Assembly: GCA_019721075.1 (NCBI GenBank)
Contig: JAHEAD010000001.1
Span: 62,001-126,000 of the forward strand
Length of the DNA stretch: 64,000 nt
Source: Candidatus Sysuiplasma jiujiangense
GTDB taxonomy: Archaea; Thermoplasmatota; Thermoplasmata; Sysuiplasmatales; Sysuiplasmataceae
Direction: 5' to 3'
The notes beneath the pieces are model-generated. The model did no database searches, was not told the origin of the DNA, and saw only the letters and a list, made by a program, of their open reading frames with translations. Numbering within the stretch: the first letter of the stretch is position 1; every line of letters starts with the position of its first letter. The translations under genes and the position numbers were made by a program. Shown one piece after another: positions 45,414 through 58,460 of the stretch.

Positions 45414-46277
45414 TTGTCAGTCGTGAGGATAAGTACGCCTGAAGCGAGGAGAATCAGACCGCTTTTGATTTCATGCGGAGGAGGCGGAAAAAACATTGCG
45501 TCGGCATTCGGAGATGCGGAAAAACTGAGCGTCGATGTTACAGAAGATGCGCAGCTTGTGATTGATGCCGCAGTCCTGTCGCTCAGCGACATGGATGACA
45601 GATTCGTAAAGTTCGCTGATTTTCATTTTGTCAGGGAACTCAGGCGTGCGCTCCAGGGACACGACTGTCTGATGATTGTGGCTGGACTCGGCGGGATCGC
45701 CGGAGGCGCAGCATGTGTGTCGGTTGCCCGTATTGCAGCAGCCCTTTCGATTCCGTCCATAGCATCCGTAGCGATGCCTTTCAATGTTGAGGGGGCAATG
45801 AGGAAGGGGGAAGCGCGAAGGGCGCTATTGAGGATAGAAAAAACTGCAAATATAACTATTTCTTTCGACAACAATTTGGTGGTGGAAGGCACGCCGAACC
45901 TGACGCTCTCCAGGGCGCTTGCAATAATGAACAGGATAATAGTTTCCCCTCTTGAGGACATTTCAATTGCCTCCGATCTGGAGTGGCTGGGATCGCTGAA
46001 GGGGAGGCATTACCGCGGCAGCTATTCGGTTGAATACATCATAGGCAGCAACTGGGAGCGGAAGGCGGTTGCCGGCCTCCTTTCAAAAATGCATGAATCA
46101 GCAAGAAATGTGAAGAGGATAGGACTGTTCGTGGAATGTGCAGACGGACACTCAGATAACTGCATGCTGCTGGCAGAAGAGTTTGAAAGACTCGCGGTAA
46201 CGGAGGAAATAACGATCTTCAGCCGGAGGGAAGGCAGCGAATCAAGGAACAGGGTTTCAGCCATCGCACTGTACTGA
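45414..46277 (+). CDS. Divergent FtsZ/tubulin-superfamily protein
   Basis: A 287-residue protein with the FtsZ layout but degenerate GTP motifs. LISCGGGGKNIASAF matches the FtsZ T1 loop; LGGIAGGAACVSVARIAAAL stands for the tubulin signature (GGGTGTG) with its Thr residues lost; IASVAMPFNVEGAMRKGEARRALLRIE is the familiar strand-helix after it (given here as the region near residues 118-145). In the T7 position, where N-x-D-x-x-D stimulates hydrolysis, the sequence reads SIASDLEWL. It therefore may bind nucleotide weakly but should not hydrolyse GTP like FtsZ. Start is TTG 45414 or GTG 45423. Role in division or cell shape is inference. Confidence 0.75.
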   Translation: MSVVRISTPEARRIRPLLISCGGGGKNIASAFGDAEKLSVDVTEDAQLVIDAAVLSLSDMDDRFVKFADFHFVRELRRALQGHDCLMIVAGLGGIAGGAACVSVARIAAALSIPSIASVAMPFNVEGAMRKGEARRALLRIEKTANITISFDNNLVVEGTPNLTLSRALAIMNRIIVSPLEDISIASDLEWLGSLKGRHYRGSYSVEYIIGSNWERKAVAGLLSKMHESARNVKRIGLFVECADGHSDNCMLLAEEFERLAVTEEITIFSRREGSESRNRVSAIALY

Positions 46278-49007: not shown

Positions 49008-52000
49008 TCACTGAAAAAGTTTAGAAATCATATCATCGATGCCCGTGATACTTGAGCGGCTGCCGTCCCAGTTTTCCAGCGACTGATATCTCCTTTCAAC
49101 AGAAGAGACGAACGCACTCATCCTTTCATTCCACCCTCCTGGTGCCTGACCGGAATAAATGGAGATGGCGAATATGTTCCTCCCCCTGTCTATTGAAATG
49201 GAATATCTTCCGAGTTCTATTCTCCTGACGGATTCTGCATTTTCCGTGCCGGAAAATGAAGTTGACACAAAATCCTGTATGGCCGTAAACATTCCTACAA
49301 CGATGTCACGGTCTACTCCCTCGTACCCTTCCCTGTTGTGTGACGATATGAGCCGACCGTCGTTGCTTATAAGAAGAACGGTCTCGAGCCGGAATAGATG
49401 TGGTTTGAAACGCATATACAAAAGCGCTGCACCAAGGACGGCAACCAGCGAAAGCAGAGCATAGAACGAGACTGCATAGATGTTAACAGGTGATGCCCTG
49501 ACATGAACGTATATTGTGCTCACCGTCACATGCCCCTGCAGAGTTGAAACGAACACCGTGATTGTTTCCTCGTCAATACCTGACGGAAGCGATATCAGGA
49601 TGTCATTGCCTATTGCTGAAGCGCCCATGCCGGAAACAGCGATCGAGATTGGTTCATGATTGGGATTATTGATGTATTGTGAGAGATTGATGATGAAGAC
49701 AGAAGACCTAGTGTAGACGGATGCCGGAATGGAGACTGTAGGAGGTATCTCGATCGGATAGACAAAAATGACAACACTGTAGTCGATGAAGCCTGCGCTT
49801 GAGTTTATGAAAAAATCCGCCCTAACGCTGCCGGTAAAATACTTTGACGGTGCAATGTTCACGAGTCCTTCAGATGATATCGTAATCGAAATATTGGAGG
49901 CGCTGCCTGAGAAACTGAGCGGTTCACCCTGAGGTGAGAAGAAGAGCGCAGACAGATTGATGGATTGCGAAACACCGTTTTCAGGTACGCTTATTATCGA
50001 CGGCAATACAACTCCTTCCATGACCGCAGGCGGTTCAAGCGATGATACATAGACTGTGATGGTGATGCTCACCGAATCATTTGATGACGGTGAAATTGGT
50101 CCTCCTATGAAGAGCAGTGAAGTGTTGTACCAGTAAGGACCCAGATAGGTCGAACCGCCGCTTGAATTTGCCGGCATTGAGAAGAGCAGAGAGAAGTTTC
50201 CCCTGCTGAACAGAATCATGTCCGAACCCGTGAGCACTGATATCTGATCCAGTGGAACATATGTGTCCGAAACATAGGGAAGCAGTGAGAGAGCATAGTT
50301 CGTTCCGCCGTCCGTGGCATAATGGACCCTGATTACTGGTATCGGCGCAACGGCAGGCGGTGTAACGATGTCTGCAATTCCCACTCTGATGAGAAGGAAG
50401 GCAAACTCCCCCTGCGTATTGTTGGCCTCAATGAGGAGTGTGCCCTGAAGCGTTGAAGGCATGGCAGGTGCACTCAGCTCTAGCGATCCTGAATTAGAAA
50501 TATGCGCGGATACGACAGTTGAATAGACGGAGTAGGACAGGGAAGTTGTGCTGTAGAAATAGCTGTTGAGGGTATAGGGAAGGGATTCAGTCTCGCCCCT
50601 GTCTATCGATATAAATGAAGGCGGTGCGTTCCTGACATCGACAGAAGGCGCGACAGACGGTGAAACCGTCACTATCTGTATGAAACCTGCAGTCATGTTG
50701 TCCGGTCCCGACGCTGTTATGAGCACGGGAAAAGACTGATGCACTGCTGCGGATGGAAAAAGGTATGTCAGCATATCCGCGTTCCTGGAAACGTACGGGG
50801 AGGTTGTTGTTACTTTCATATCATTAACCGCGTAAGGTGCGAACCCCAGGAAATATGTAAAATTCAATGAGAATGCAACGCCGTCCTGGACTGCCAGATA
50901 ATGCGGCATCGATGCGTTCCACTTCGGAACGGGAAGCACTTTTATCTGCAGTTCGGTTGACGCAGAGTAACCCTCACGGTTTACAACCACAAGTGTGGCA
51001 TTGACGAATCCGTAGACACCGGGGTATGAGACGAATGTAATATTTGCGTCACCGAAGGAACCCGAGCCGTATGTATAGAAGAGGCTATTCCCGCCGTACA
51101 GAAACCACTGCAGATTTGCCAGGTACGGATCATTCGGATCCTGAACATAGGGCGCCAGATTCAATTGCCAGCTGTAGTTAGAAGGCTCCTGCATTGCAGG
51201 TATTGCTGAGATGAAACGGGGACTGAATGCTGAAGGCACCACCGTAAGACGCGCCTGAGCAGTGACGCCTGCAGAGGCTGCTTCTAAGTAGCCTGAGGAG
51301 AGAGGTTGCGTCGATACATTAAGCACAGCAAAACTCCCGTTGACATAAAGCGTTCCGGCATTGGTTGTCCAGAGTACATTTTCAACCTGCACCTGATTGC
51401 CGTACGCATCGTACCCGATGGCACTGAAGAAATAGGTTTGTCCGGCCATGAGTGTCTCGCTTGATGGACTTATTTCAAGTGTGAAGAGCGGAGCCGAGGA
51501 CACTGAGACTGACGCATAGCCGCTTGCACCGCTGACAGTGTCGGAAACAACCACTCTTCCGGTTCCGTTTCTCAGTGCCTGAAATACGCCAGTCCGTGAT
51601 ATGTTGCCTATATTCCCCGTAACATTCCACTGCGGGGACCAGCTGTTGTTCAGATTGCCGTATACGTCAAATCCCTGTGCAGTGAACGTTTCAGTTTCAC
51701 CCGCAACCATAGAGTAGTTGCCCGGGCTGATCACTATCCTGCTCACGTAAGAGGCGACCACGCCAACGGACGACGAACCGTAAACGGCACCGTATACGAT
51801 GTGAAGCGTGAAATTGCCTGACAGGTATATGGTCAGATTCATGGCTGAATAGCCATTTCTGAACATAGCTGTTCCTGGAACATATTCTGCAGCACTGACC
51901 CGGCTTCCGTTCCCGGACAGGAGTATCACGTTAGCGGTCCCATTAAATGACTGCATTACGGCACCGTTATCGGCAACTGCGTAGGAATTGACAGTTTCTG

Positions 52001-53024
52001 TGCTTCCTGCAGTCACATTAACTGTTGCGGGTAGAGAGAAATATTCCAGGGACGGTCTGACGTATATTGAGCTGTTGAGGTAATAAGACTCCAGATAACC
52101 CGTCAGATTCGCCGCCGTAAACGCCCTGAACTCGATGGTGTAGCTGCCGTATCTGATGGGGGCTGAGGAGAAATTGAATATGCGGAAGTAGCCTCCCGCT
52201 GAATAATTCGTCATAAGGCCCGAAGCAACCACGTAGCCCGTACTGTTCACTATGGTGAGGGAAACACCCGCAATATCACTGTAACCGAGCGCATCTGTGA
52301 CATTTGCCTGAATCAGGAGACTCTGATTATCATACACGGCGTTTCCGTCATTAACATTAGCCTGCAGCGAGGAGATCCTCGGTGTAATGTTTAATCTGAA
52401 GTTCGAAGGGACATTGTTATAGTCAAACTCGACATATACGCTCGTGAAAACATTACTGTCGATTCTTGTTGCATTCAGGACAATGCTGCTCCCTGCCGCA
52501 AGAGTATATGATGAAATTTTTGCCAAATCGACATAGACGCGTTCGTTCGGAACAAGCGAAATATCCCCCGTGGCGCCGGAAGATATATTGTAAGATTTTC
52601 CACTGGTCACATTCTGCAGACTGATTGCGATATCCACTGGACTTCCTGTTGATGTGTTTGATGGTGTCAGATAAAGGGTTACATTGACTGTCCCGCTCAG
52701 TTCCATTGGCACTCCGGCAGCCGGAAAAACAATCCATTTAAACGAGTTGTCAGGAGCGTCCGCATTAAGGGCGATGCCCTGATAACTGTTGCTTATGAAG
52801 TAGGGATTCGGCGGGTTATACGGCACTGATGTGTTTGCCCAGTCGAATCTCTTTGAATAATCACCCGATCCATGCTGGTCATCGTGCAGGTAGAATGTCG
52901 TGGTAATCGGCTGAGGCACCGATCCTTTGGCTGTGGCGGTCGCGACGAAATATGATGCGGGGAGAAGAATGATGAGAGATATGAACACAATTGATATTCC
53001 TCTGAAATTTGGACCAGACCTCAT
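49008..53024 (-). CDS. Giant cell-surface protein with cytoplasmic roadblock/longin-like domain
   Basis: A protein of about 1338 residues: signal sequence (about 10-32 from ATG 53024), then about 1150 extracellular residues made of Ig/cadherin-like beta units rich in Ser, Asn and Tyr, with several Big2-like units (EISPSSETLMAGQTYFFSA) and Ig-type units (IPVIRVHYATDG). One helix (about 1190-1212) follows, and the last 125 residues are cytoplasmic. That tail (VLLISNDGRLISSHN ... MFTAIQDFVSTSFSG ... SVERRYQSLENWDG) has the strand-helix pattern of roadblock/LC7 or longin-like domains, which in prokaryotes bind small GTPases. A Ras-like GTPase gene lies directly upstream. TTG 53066 is an alternative start. 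Confidence 0.75.
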   Translation of the reverse strand: MRSGPNFRGISIVFISLIILLPASYFVATATAKGSVPQPITTTFYLHDDQHGSGDYSKRFDWANTSVPYNPPNPYFISNSYQGIALNADAPDNSFKWIVFPAAGVPMELSGTVNVTLYLTPSNTSTGSPVDIAISLQNVTSGKSYNISSGATGDISLVPNERVYVDLAKISSYTLAAGSSIVLNATRIDSNVFTSVYVEFDYNNVPSNFRLNITPRISSLQANVNDGNAVYDNQSLLIQANVTDALGYSDIAGVSLTIVNSTGYVVASGLMTNYSAGGYFRIFNFSSAPIRYGSYTIEFRAFTAANLTGYLESYYLNSSIYVRPSLEYFSLPATVNVTAGSTETVNSYAVADNGAVMQSFNGTANVILLSGNGSRVSAAEYVPGTAMFRNGYSAMNLTIYLSGNFTLHIVYGAVYGSSSVGVVASYVSRIVISPGNYSMVAGETETFTAQGFDVYGNLNNSWSPQWNVTGNIGNISRTGVFQALRNGTGRVVVSDTVSGASGYASVSVSSAPLFTLEISPSSETLMAGQTYFFSAIGYDAYGNQVQVENVLWTTNAGTLYVNGSFAVLNVSTQPLSSGYLEAASAGVTAQARLTVVPSAFSPRFISAIPAMQEPSNYSWQLNLAPYVQDPNDPYLANLQWFLYGGNSLFYTYGSGSFGDANITFVSYPGVYGFVNATLVVVNREGYSASTELQIKVLPVPKWNASMPHYLAVQDGVAFSLNFTYFLGFAPYAVNDMKVTTTSPYVSRNADMLTYLFPSAAVHQSFPVLITASGPDNMTAGFIQIVTVSPSVAPSVDVRNAPPSFISIDRGETESLPYTLNSYFYSTTSLSYSVYSTVVSAHISNSGSLELSAPAMPSTLQGTLLIEANNTQGEFAFLLIRVGIADIVTPPAVAPIPVIRVHYATDGGTNYALSLLPYVSDTYVPLDQISVLTGSDMILFSRGNFSLLFSMPANSSGGSTYLGPYWYNTSLLFIGGPISPSSNDSVSITITVYVSSLEPPAVMEGVVLPSIISVPENGVSQSINLSALFFSPQGEPLSFSGSASNISITISSEGLVNIAPSKYFTGSVRADFFINSSAGFIDYSVVIFVYPIEIPPTVSIPASVYTRSSVFIINLSQYINNPNHEPISIAVSGMGASAIGNDILISLPSGIDEETITVFVSTLQGHVTVSTIYVHVRASPVNIYAVSFYALLSLVAVLGAALLYMRFKPHLFRLETVLLISNDGRLISSHNREGYEGVDRDIVVGMFTAIQDFVSTSFSGTENAESVRRIELGRYSISIDRGRNIFAISIYSGQAPGGWNERMSAFVSSVERRYQSLENWDGSRSSITGIDDMISKLFQ

Positions 53025-53084
53025 CCTAAATCGCCGCCGTTTGTTGGAGCAAAGGATTCCATTCAAAGGAGCAATTGCCCATTC

Positions 53085-53624
53085 CTACTTTCTTGATGTC
53101 AGCATAGAAGCCAGCCGCATGAACGCGTTCTCCACACCTTCGCCCGTTTTGGCACTGGTGACCATTGCCGGCGAGCCATATGAAGTTGCAACCTTTTCCA
53201 GATCCTGTTTTGTCACTGTGGCCTTGTCCGTGAGATCGCACTTGTTGCCAATGAAAATCATCGGTATGTGGCCGGTTATGCTCTCCATCGACTTTATCCA
53301 GTATTTCAGCTCCTCAAGCGATTCCCTGCTTGTAACATCACAAACACAAATGGCCCCTTCAGCACCATAGAAATAAGATTCGCGCAGGAGTTCCCTGAAC
53401 CCCTTCTGACCCATTATATCCCATATGAGCATTGAAAGATTTATATCCCGGCCGTTGTCCTTCTTGACGGTAACCTCCTTCTTCGTGACCTTGGTGCCTA
53501 TTGTGGAAGTGTACTTGTCGTCAAATGTATCCAGTACGAATCGCCTGATCAGACTCGTCTTGCCGACATTGTTGTCCCCGACCAGACAAATCTTTGTCTT
53601 AATTTCCTCGTTCAGCCAAATCAC
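53085..53624 (-). CDS. Ras/Rab-like small GTPase
   Basis: A 179-residue GTPase with all five motifs: G1 GDNNVGKTS (16-24), switch I Thr in YTSTIGTKV (39-47), G3 WDIMGQKGF (68-76) with the catalytic Gln73, G4 NKCD (127-130) and G5 TSAK (156-159). It is close to eukaryotic Rab/Ras and to archaeal Ras-superfamily relatives rather than to bacterial MglA, because it keeps DxxGQ. There is no C-terminal Cys for lipidation. It starts with GTG and is followed after a short gap by the giant surface-protein gene, forming a two-gene operon. It probably cycles on the cytoplasmic tail of that protein; this is inference. Confidence 0.92.
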   Translation of the reverse strand: MIWLNEEIKTKICLVGDNNVGKTSLIRRFVLDTFDDKYTSTIGTKVTKKEVTVKKDNGRDINLSMLIWDIMGQKGFRELLRESYFYGAEGAICVCDVTSRESLEELKYWIKSMESITGHIPMIFIGNKCDLTDKATVTKQDLEKVATSYGSPAMVTSAKTGEGVENAFMRLASMLTSRK

Positions 53625-53669: not shown

Positions 53670-53705
53670 GATAAATATATTTCATTATGCTTTCATTTAA
53701 TGAAA
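53670..53705. promoter_or_regulatory. GTPase promoter and adjacent palindrome
   Basis: On the minus strand AAATATATTTATC (about 53671-53683) is a strong TATA box for the GTPase operon. Just upstream in that direction lies TTTCATTTAATGAAA (53691-53705), a near-perfect palindrome that could be an operator or part of the 3' end of the enoyl-CoA hydratase transcript. Confidence 0.45.
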
Positions 53706-57674: not shown

Positions 57675-58460
57675 ATGGCAAGGCAGATAATAACCGGTAT
57701 CACGGAAAAAGAAGGAGCGAGATATGCGCTTATCTGCGGCGACCCGGAGAGGGTTCCGAAGATTGCTTCAAAACTCTCTTCCGCGAAAAATATCATGCGC
57801 GTACGGGAGTACAACATAATGGCAGGAACGCTTGAAGGTGAAAAGGCGGTTGTTGCATCCACGGGGATTGGCGGGCCATCTACCGCGATCCTGATGGAGG
57901 AACTGGCCAATACAGGCACTGACACTTTCATCAGGGTTGGGACCTCGGGTGGCATCGCCAACGGACTCACAAAGGGAGATCTTGTCATAACAACAGGAGC
58001 TTACAGAAAGGACGGAACGAGCAGAAGCTATGTTCCAGACACTTTCCCGGCTCTTGCACACACGGATATTATATCAGCTCTGACGGCAGCGGCAAAAAAA
58101 TTAGGACTGCGTTATCAGTCTGGTCTTACGCTTTCGGTTGACGGTTTCTATTCTGAAAATAAAATAATTGATAAGGGCATCATAAAATCCATGTCCCATC
58201 TCGGTTTCGCTCTTTCAGGAACCGAAAACAGTCTTGGGGATGCAAAAAAACTGGGTGTGAAAAATATAGAGATGGAGATGGGGACGGTTCTGACATTAAC
58301 CACACTCTGGGGGATCCGTGGAGGAGGAGTATGCCTTGTTTCAGATGTTGCACCTTGGCACTATACCGAAGATGTCATCGACCCGGAAACAGGGATGGAA
58401 AACTGCATAGCTGTCGGTATAGAGGCAACGAGGAATATTATTCGCTCTGACAGGAAATAG
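57675..58460 (+). CDS. udp: Uridine phosphorylase
   Basis: A 261-residue nucleoside phosphorylase of the NP-I family, cleaving uridine with phosphate to uracil and ribose 1-phosphate. Family segments: CGDPERVPKIAS, VASTGIGGPSTAILMEEL (phosphate site), RVGTSGGIANGL and EMEMGTVLTL, where the Glu-Met-Glu binds ribose. Length agrees. The ATG follows directly on the gcvH stop codon. It could equally act on related nucleosides; the uridine assignment rests on overall resemblance. Confidence 0.9.
   Translation: MARQIITGITEKEGARYALICGDPERVPKIASKLSSAKNIMRVREYNIMAGTLEGEKAVVASTGIGGPSTAILMEELANTGTDTFIRVGTSGGIANGLTKGDLVITTGAYRKDGTSRSYVPDTFPALAHTDIISALTAAAKKLGLRYQSGLTLSVDGFYSENKIIDKGIIKSMSHLGFALSGTENSLGDAKKLGVKNIEMEMGTVLTLTTLWGIRGGGVCLVSDVAPWHYTEDVIDPETGMENCIAVGIEATRNIIRSDRK

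Follow-up and report, generated by a model that had tools for sequence, protein, structure and literature searches.

Does a small Ras-like GTPase encoded directly upstream of a giant surface protein in an archaeal genome work together with that protein at the cell envelope, and if so through which part of it? The question arises from a locus of Candidatus Sysuiplasma jiujiangense (phylum Thermoplasmatota; contig JAHEAD010000001.1, positions 62,001–126,000), in a stretch of 64,000 nucleotides that is called the window here. The initial annotation, made from the sequence alone, had proposed the two genes as a candidate signalling pair of the envelope. We find this proposal supported by the predicted longin-type tail of the surface protein, by conservation of the gene pair and by co-occurrence across genomes, with binding and signal direction being inferred. 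The reading that we prefer, in which the tail docks or regulates the soluble Rab-like GTPase as part of a receptor–GTPase module, has in our estimate a probability of roughly 0.65. The features of the locus are collected in Table 1.

Table 1. Features of the GTPase–surface protein locus (positions in the window).
Feature	Position	Strand	Basis
Cytoplasmic longin-type tail domain (predicted), residues 1208–1338	49011..49403	−	AlphaFold2, Foldseek, hhalign, weak Pfam matches in relatives
Single transmembrane (TM) helix, basic residues directly after	49419..49475	−	Hydropathy 2.31 over 19 residues
Ectodomain, tandem all-beta (Ig/cadherin/S-layer-like) modules	49440..52925	−	AlphaFold2, Foldseek, 41 sequons
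Predicted N-terminal signal segment	52929..53024	−	Hydropathy; hydrophobic N-terminus in homologues too
Giant single-pass surface protein, 1338 aa	49008..53024	−	ORF; full-length homologues; alternative TTG start at 53066
Rab-like small GTPase, 179 aa, without C-terminal cysteine	53085..53624	−	Pfam Ras 4e-40; best PDB matches Rab1A/Rab8A; order relatives
TATA-like promoter block ATGAAATATATTTA	53672..53685	−	Invariant in alignment of seven upstream regions (order)
Imperfect palindrome TTTCATTAAATGAAA	53691..53705	−	Sequence; in conserved upstream block, symmetry not kept

The GTPase gene is intact and starts with GTG. Its product carries, just as the initial annotation had stated, the motifs of a Ras protein (P-loop GDNNVGKT, DIMGQ and NKCD), and so meets the G-motif criterion for the Ras superfamily, i.e. 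a catalytic DxxGQ together with NKxD; among 48 related GTPases DxxGQ was found in 34 and NKxD in 47. It is the sole Ras-family gene above the Pfam cut-off in the window's genome, is 86–92% identical to the proteins of six relatives of the order, and by sequence comparison its closest PDB entries lie at E ~1e-31. A cysteine within the last six residues was found in none of the 48 related GTPase ORFs, the window protein ending in TSRK. The criterion of prenylatable C-terminal cysteines that true eukaryotic Rabs meet is therefore failed, and 'Rab-like' is used here for similarity only, not for membership of the Rab family. Given this lack of terminal cysteines, a protein partner is the likely route to the membrane and the tail of the neighbouring protein a plausible membrane recruiter.

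The giant gene follows downstream in the same direction after a gap of about 60 bp, in an operon-like arrangement. A longer ORF (49008–53066, minus strand) opens with TTG, but homologues favour the ATG over this start, as the initial annotation had implied in describing a single-pass protein of over 1300 residues beside the GTPase. Full-length homologues share 42–57% identity within the order and 22–25% in a second family (f3), with E-values down to 4e-55. The protein has one strong TM segment (residues ~1184–1202 of 1338); N-glycosylation sequons (N-X-S/T) in the ectodomain number 41, against 16.9 ± 3.6 in shuffled sequence, and there are none in the tail. A signal segment, a sequon-rich ectodomain, one TM and a sequon-free tail together make up a type I single-pass pattern with a cytosolic C-terminus, so that the criteria for a single-pass receptor-like protein (signal segment, glycosylatable ectodomain, one TM, cytoplasmic C-terminal domain) are satisfied, on sequence and model evidence only. 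The ectodomain model is of low to moderate confidence (pLDDT 70, pTM 0.38), and the Foldseek matches obtained with it are Ig, cadherin and S-layer arrays.

For the last ~130 residues of the giant protein there is no match in Pfam or NCBIfam, and a profile of 17 tail sequences recovered nothing convincing among PDB sequences. An AlphaFold2 model built from 81 relatives, this being the check that the initial annotation had proposed for what it took to be a roadblock/LC7 or longin-type tail, reached a pLDDT of 80.5 and a pTM of 0.74, with its elements in the order b1-b2-a1-b3-b4-b5-a2-a3, which is that of longins and not of roadblock domains. Longins differ from roadblock domains in lacking an N-terminal helix and in having an extra C-terminal helix (PMC10933270), and the model satisfies the criterion of a longin order without the N-terminal helix. 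In a Foldseek search of the PDB the leading matches were AP-1/2/3 sigma and mu, TRAPP subunits, Mon1-Ccz1, Sec22b, COP zeta and Ragulator, with MglB (6izw, 6hjm) and an Asgard roadblock protein ranked lower. Compared with solved longin domains (AP sigma/mu, TRAPP, Sec22b, Ykt6, Mon1-Ccz1), the tail gave E-values of 8.5e-5 to 1.8e-3 and TM-scores of 0.49–0.64; since TM-scores to longins are moderate overall (0.4–0.64), the assignment is one at superfamily level and no proof of a particular longin subfamily. From the model we predict a longin-type domain of the longin/roadblock superfamily. A roadblock/LC7 domain of the MglB type was considered and rejected, as no N-terminal helix precedes b1 in the model and PF03259 has no match to the window tail. 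What had been claimed for the tail is thus narrowed: the longin topology and the longin/roadblock matches in the PDB stand, the MglB-type roadblock falls.

Sequence comparison lends this link to longin and roadblock proteins weak but consistent support. Aligned with Thermoplasmata roadblock proteins by hhalign, the tail is collinear over 97 columns (E 3.7e-4, probability 37%; unrelated control, E 0.027), and among the 81 tail relatives the only Pfam models recurring in more than two members are Robl_LC7 (six members, best E 0.0038) and Fuz_longin_1 (four members, best E 0.0029), both as weak matches. One roadblock protein (L187:3713–4135, minus strand) matches the roadblock profile (1e-20) as well as the tail profile (6.6e-7), and is a possible bridge between the two families to judge by these profiles. 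Two stand-alone roadblock/LC7 genes (L001 and L002; G000:C2) lie elsewhere in the window's genome, and their products might partner either the GTPase or the longin tail.

The window tail belongs to a domain family that is unnamed in Pfam and NCBIfam and recurs across Thermoplasmatota. A narrow tail profile matched 135 of 300 genomes of the class, and the domain was found in other classes too (28 of 243 genomes in a sample of the phylum). A scan of the genome collection yielded at least 510 tail relatives, and the best 80 of these come, by their titles, from Thermoplasmatota or unclassified euryarchaeal MAGs. Two architectures dominate. In one, the domain is C-terminal and follows a TM in secreted, sequon-rich proteins of about 900–2500 aa, and modules of the PKD, FG-GAP beta-propeller, cadherin-like, beta-helix or carboxypeptidase-regulatory kind are among those seen in the ectodomains; in the other, proteins without a TM and poor in sequons carry two to three copies together with CARDB/HYDIN-like or TPR segments. 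Proteins with one copy alongside WD40/HEAT or zinc-ribbon segments were also found. Some genomes have expanded the family to ten or more copies, while the window genome, with exactly one GTPase and one tail protein, is the minimal version of the system.

Several members of the family deserve individual mention. L082, L095, L130 and L097 encode TM-less proteins of about 2000–2400 aa with two or three longin-like copies, some with CARDB/HYDIN-like Ig segments, and these are probably cytoplasmic. In a different class of the phylum, L183:6743–8467 and L185:7292–9022 encode proteins of 574–576 aa in which two longin-like domains stand back to back and some four TM segments are predicted. The giant proteins of L186, L187 and L191, which have a divergent roadblock gene 1.3–1.8 kb upstream in a pyrBI-like pyrimidine-biosynthesis neighbourhood, combine repeated FG-GAP-like and PKD-like segments with a TM and a longin tail, and are integrin-alpha-like by layout only.

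If the tail has to do with the GTPase, the two genes should keep company in relatives, and a pair that was not conserved had been named in the initial annotation as grounds for refutation. Conservation was found. In the order the GTPase lies directly upstream of the giant gene on the same strand in all seven genomes with upstream DNA, and in f3 it lies 36–109 bp upstream of the giant-protein homologue at 12 of 12 loci. Elsewhere tail and GTPase genes are convergent (L116, L136, L169, G142) or divergent (L105, L188), or the GTPase gene is upstream (L099, L115) or downstream (L124) of the tail gene. Counted over 80 loci, the two genes adjoin in 22, whereas 564 kb of flanking DNA farther out contains four other GTPase ORFs; the order and f3 account for most of these 22 cases, which cannot be taken as independent. 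Fusion of the two genes, which the initial annotation had suggested surveying, was not seen in any of the 80 loci.

At the level of genomes the association is strong. Scored with the narrow profile, the 300 genomes of the class comprise 134 with both tail and GTPase, one with the tail only (a genome 57% complete), 16 with the GTPase only and 149 with neither; a wider tail profile adds two to those with both (136, 1, 14 and 149, respectively). For most of the genomes scored as lacking the tail, the search used the narrower profile, A2, and the counts are not corrected for phylogeny. Tail-bearing genomes that were checked directly contained a GTPase in 20 of 20 cases, including four families of other classes, and the co-occurrence extends through the phylum. 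The tail tracks the genera having closer GTPases in families f13 and f17, and one genus of f9 has a GTPase without a tail. Copy numbers of tail and GTPase are 1:1 in single-copy families, some of which, f20, f29 and f30 among them, have the two genes unlinked.

The f3 GTPase nearest to that of the window is, by a small margin and with modest support (96/74), a paralogue not adjoining the giant gene, and no second tail gene was found beside this paralogue within the neighbourhoods examined (L172–L175, L182). The paralogue lies near a nucleoside phosphorylase-like gene at these loci, and so does the window GTPase (with such a gene at 57675–58460), hinting at gene shuffling between GTPase paralogues. 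Three to four Rab-like GTPase genes also stand in tandem at L177 (7942–10392) and L176 (8983–10813), several of the copies lacking DxxGQ.

How might such a pair work? In the receptor–GTPase module, the surface protein would be anchored in the membrane by one helix, with a long glycosylated array of beta-sandwich domains outside and the longin-type domain inside. This domain is probably dimeric, through the meeting of two surface proteins or with a separate roadblock protein, and the dimer would serve as a docking and regulatory platform for the soluble GTPase, which itself lacks a lipid anchor. Once the ectodomain bound a ligand or clustered, the platform would be altered, and the GTPase would be recruited or its nucleotide state changed (outside-in). 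Direct contact between the two proteins, dimerisation, a GEF/GAP or effector-dock activity and the direction of the signal are inferred throughout. We prefer this reading because of the longin topology, with PDB matches led by longins that contact small GTPases or sit within their regulators, and because of the synteny, the varied adjacencies, the co-occurrence, the 1:1 copy number and the cysteine-less GTPases. It is weakened by the unlinked genes in f20, f29 and f30, by the closeness of the f3 paralogue, by the moderate TM-scores and by the roles that longin folds also have independently of GTPases, as in SNAREs. More tentatively, and at somewhat less than even odds, Thermoplasmatota may possess a large class of TM receptors that signal directly to soluble Rab-like GTPases via a conserved longin-type tail, with interchangeable adhesin-like ectodomains (Ig-like, cadherin-like, PKD, FG-GAP beta-propellers), outside Asgard archaea and eukaryotes.

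The same structural matches can be read in the opposite direction. AP sigma/mu and COP zeta, adaptor subunits among the top matches, would suit a tail that is a sorting or positioning signal, with the GTPase steering placement, export or clustering of the surface protein and no signal passing inward, much as Rab/Arf act with longin adaptor subunits or SR-beta with the SRX longin; one tail type on many unrelated ectodomains is likewise what a sorting tag would produce. Proteins that carry the domain two or three times and have no TM are not cargo, however, and with one such protein and one GTPase the window genome would maintain a sorting system for a single cargo, so that we consider delivery of this kind unlikely. 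It is also conceivable that the tail, as a longin-like domain for dimerisation or scaffolding, never touches the GTPase, the genes being neighbours because both serve the envelope. Longin domains that do not act on GTPases exist, and several single-copy families have the two genes apart, but the near one-way co-occurrence across genomes, the several adjacencies in different orientations and lineages and the 1:1 copy number in single-copy families make such a bystander role improbable.

A further possibility moves the regulation of the GTPase to the separate roadblock proteins, in the manner of MglA/MglB, and leaves the tail as merely a subunit of that complex. Roadblock genes were found in nearly all tail-bearing genomes sampled, and in f20, f29 and f30 one lies divergently 1.3–1.8 kb upstream of the tail gene, which speaks for such a complex; yet they occur in genomes without the tail as well, and those of the window's genome are not near the pair. 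We regard this division of labour as doubtful.

Docking of a small GTPase on the tail would have precedents, as longin and roadblock domains are well known as small-GTPase platforms. MglA/MglB, the polarity GTPase of Myxococcus and its roadblock GAP/GEF, likewise pair a small Ras-superfamily GTPase with a protein of the roadblock/longin superfamily; MglB, however, is a small soluble roadblock protein, whereas here a longin-type domain forms the cytoplasmic tail of a giant surface protein, and the window GTPase is nearer to Rab1/Rab8 than to MglA in the PDB. The eukaryotic TRAPP core, Mon1-Ccz1 and Ragulator resemble the tail in predicted fold and in their association with Rab/Rag-type GTPases, but are soluble or peripheral complexes and not C-terminal tails of glycosylated surface proteins. 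Genetic coupling of a small Ras-like GTPase to a sensor in the membrane or a protein of the envelope is also seen in actinobacterial conservons (CvnA-D) and in Group 1 Rup neighbourhoods (PMC4316618). The conservons have a histidine-kinase-like sensor and a separate roadblock protein, the Rup neighbourhoods an OmpA-type protein (PMC4316618), and in neither case has the surface protein been described as carrying a longin domain of its own.

A longin-tailed archaeal receptor was not described in the literature that we searched, which was limited to open-licence papers. For Rab-like GTPases outside Asgard archaea we know of no named partner so far. Such GTPases were reported from Thermoplasmatales and Aciduliprofundum, one copy per species (PMC4915359); the words neighbour, operon and synteny do not occur in that paper, and hence no partner seems to be named. 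The GTPase is of the same kind as ours, for which a candidate partner family, with expansions, is now identified. Asgard archaea share Rab-like GTPases and longin folds with our system, and have roadblock/TRAPPC3 proteins besides (PMC10933270). In the Asgard archaeon MK-D1 GTPase genes generally lie outside operons with roadblock or longin genes, and longin–GTPase fusions are reported (PMC10933270), whereas here the gene pair is conserved, the longin stands on a transmembrane receptor-like protein and the 80 loci contain no fusion. As far as our searches show, the placing of a longin domain at the cytoplasmic end of modular surface proteins, the conservation of the two genes as a pair and the association of tail and Rab-like GTPase throughout the phylum are new. 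They provide a specific, testable partner family for non-Asgard Rab-like GTPases, and suggest that coupling of surface proteins to Rab-type switches via longin platforms is widespread in a euryarchaeal phylum and that a receptor-to-GTPase signalling system exists outside eukaryotes and Asgard archaea. This is relevant to the question of how eukaryotic GTPase platforms arose, and to the means by which archaea might sense surface contact.

The pair had also been credited with its own promoter and an adjacent palindrome. The TATA-like block next to the palindrome is invariant in seven genomes. The palindrome is indeed present, but its symmetry is gone in most relatives in the alignment of upstream regions. 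The stretch is conserved, though not as a palindrome, and a role of TTTCATTAAATGAAA as an operator is therefore unsupported. On the other side, about 3 kb downstream of the pair, lies a gene (45414–46274, plus strand) for a divergent tubulin/FtsZ-family protein of 287 aa (Pfam Tubulin, 6e-10), which is syntenic in relatives at only 35–47% identity.
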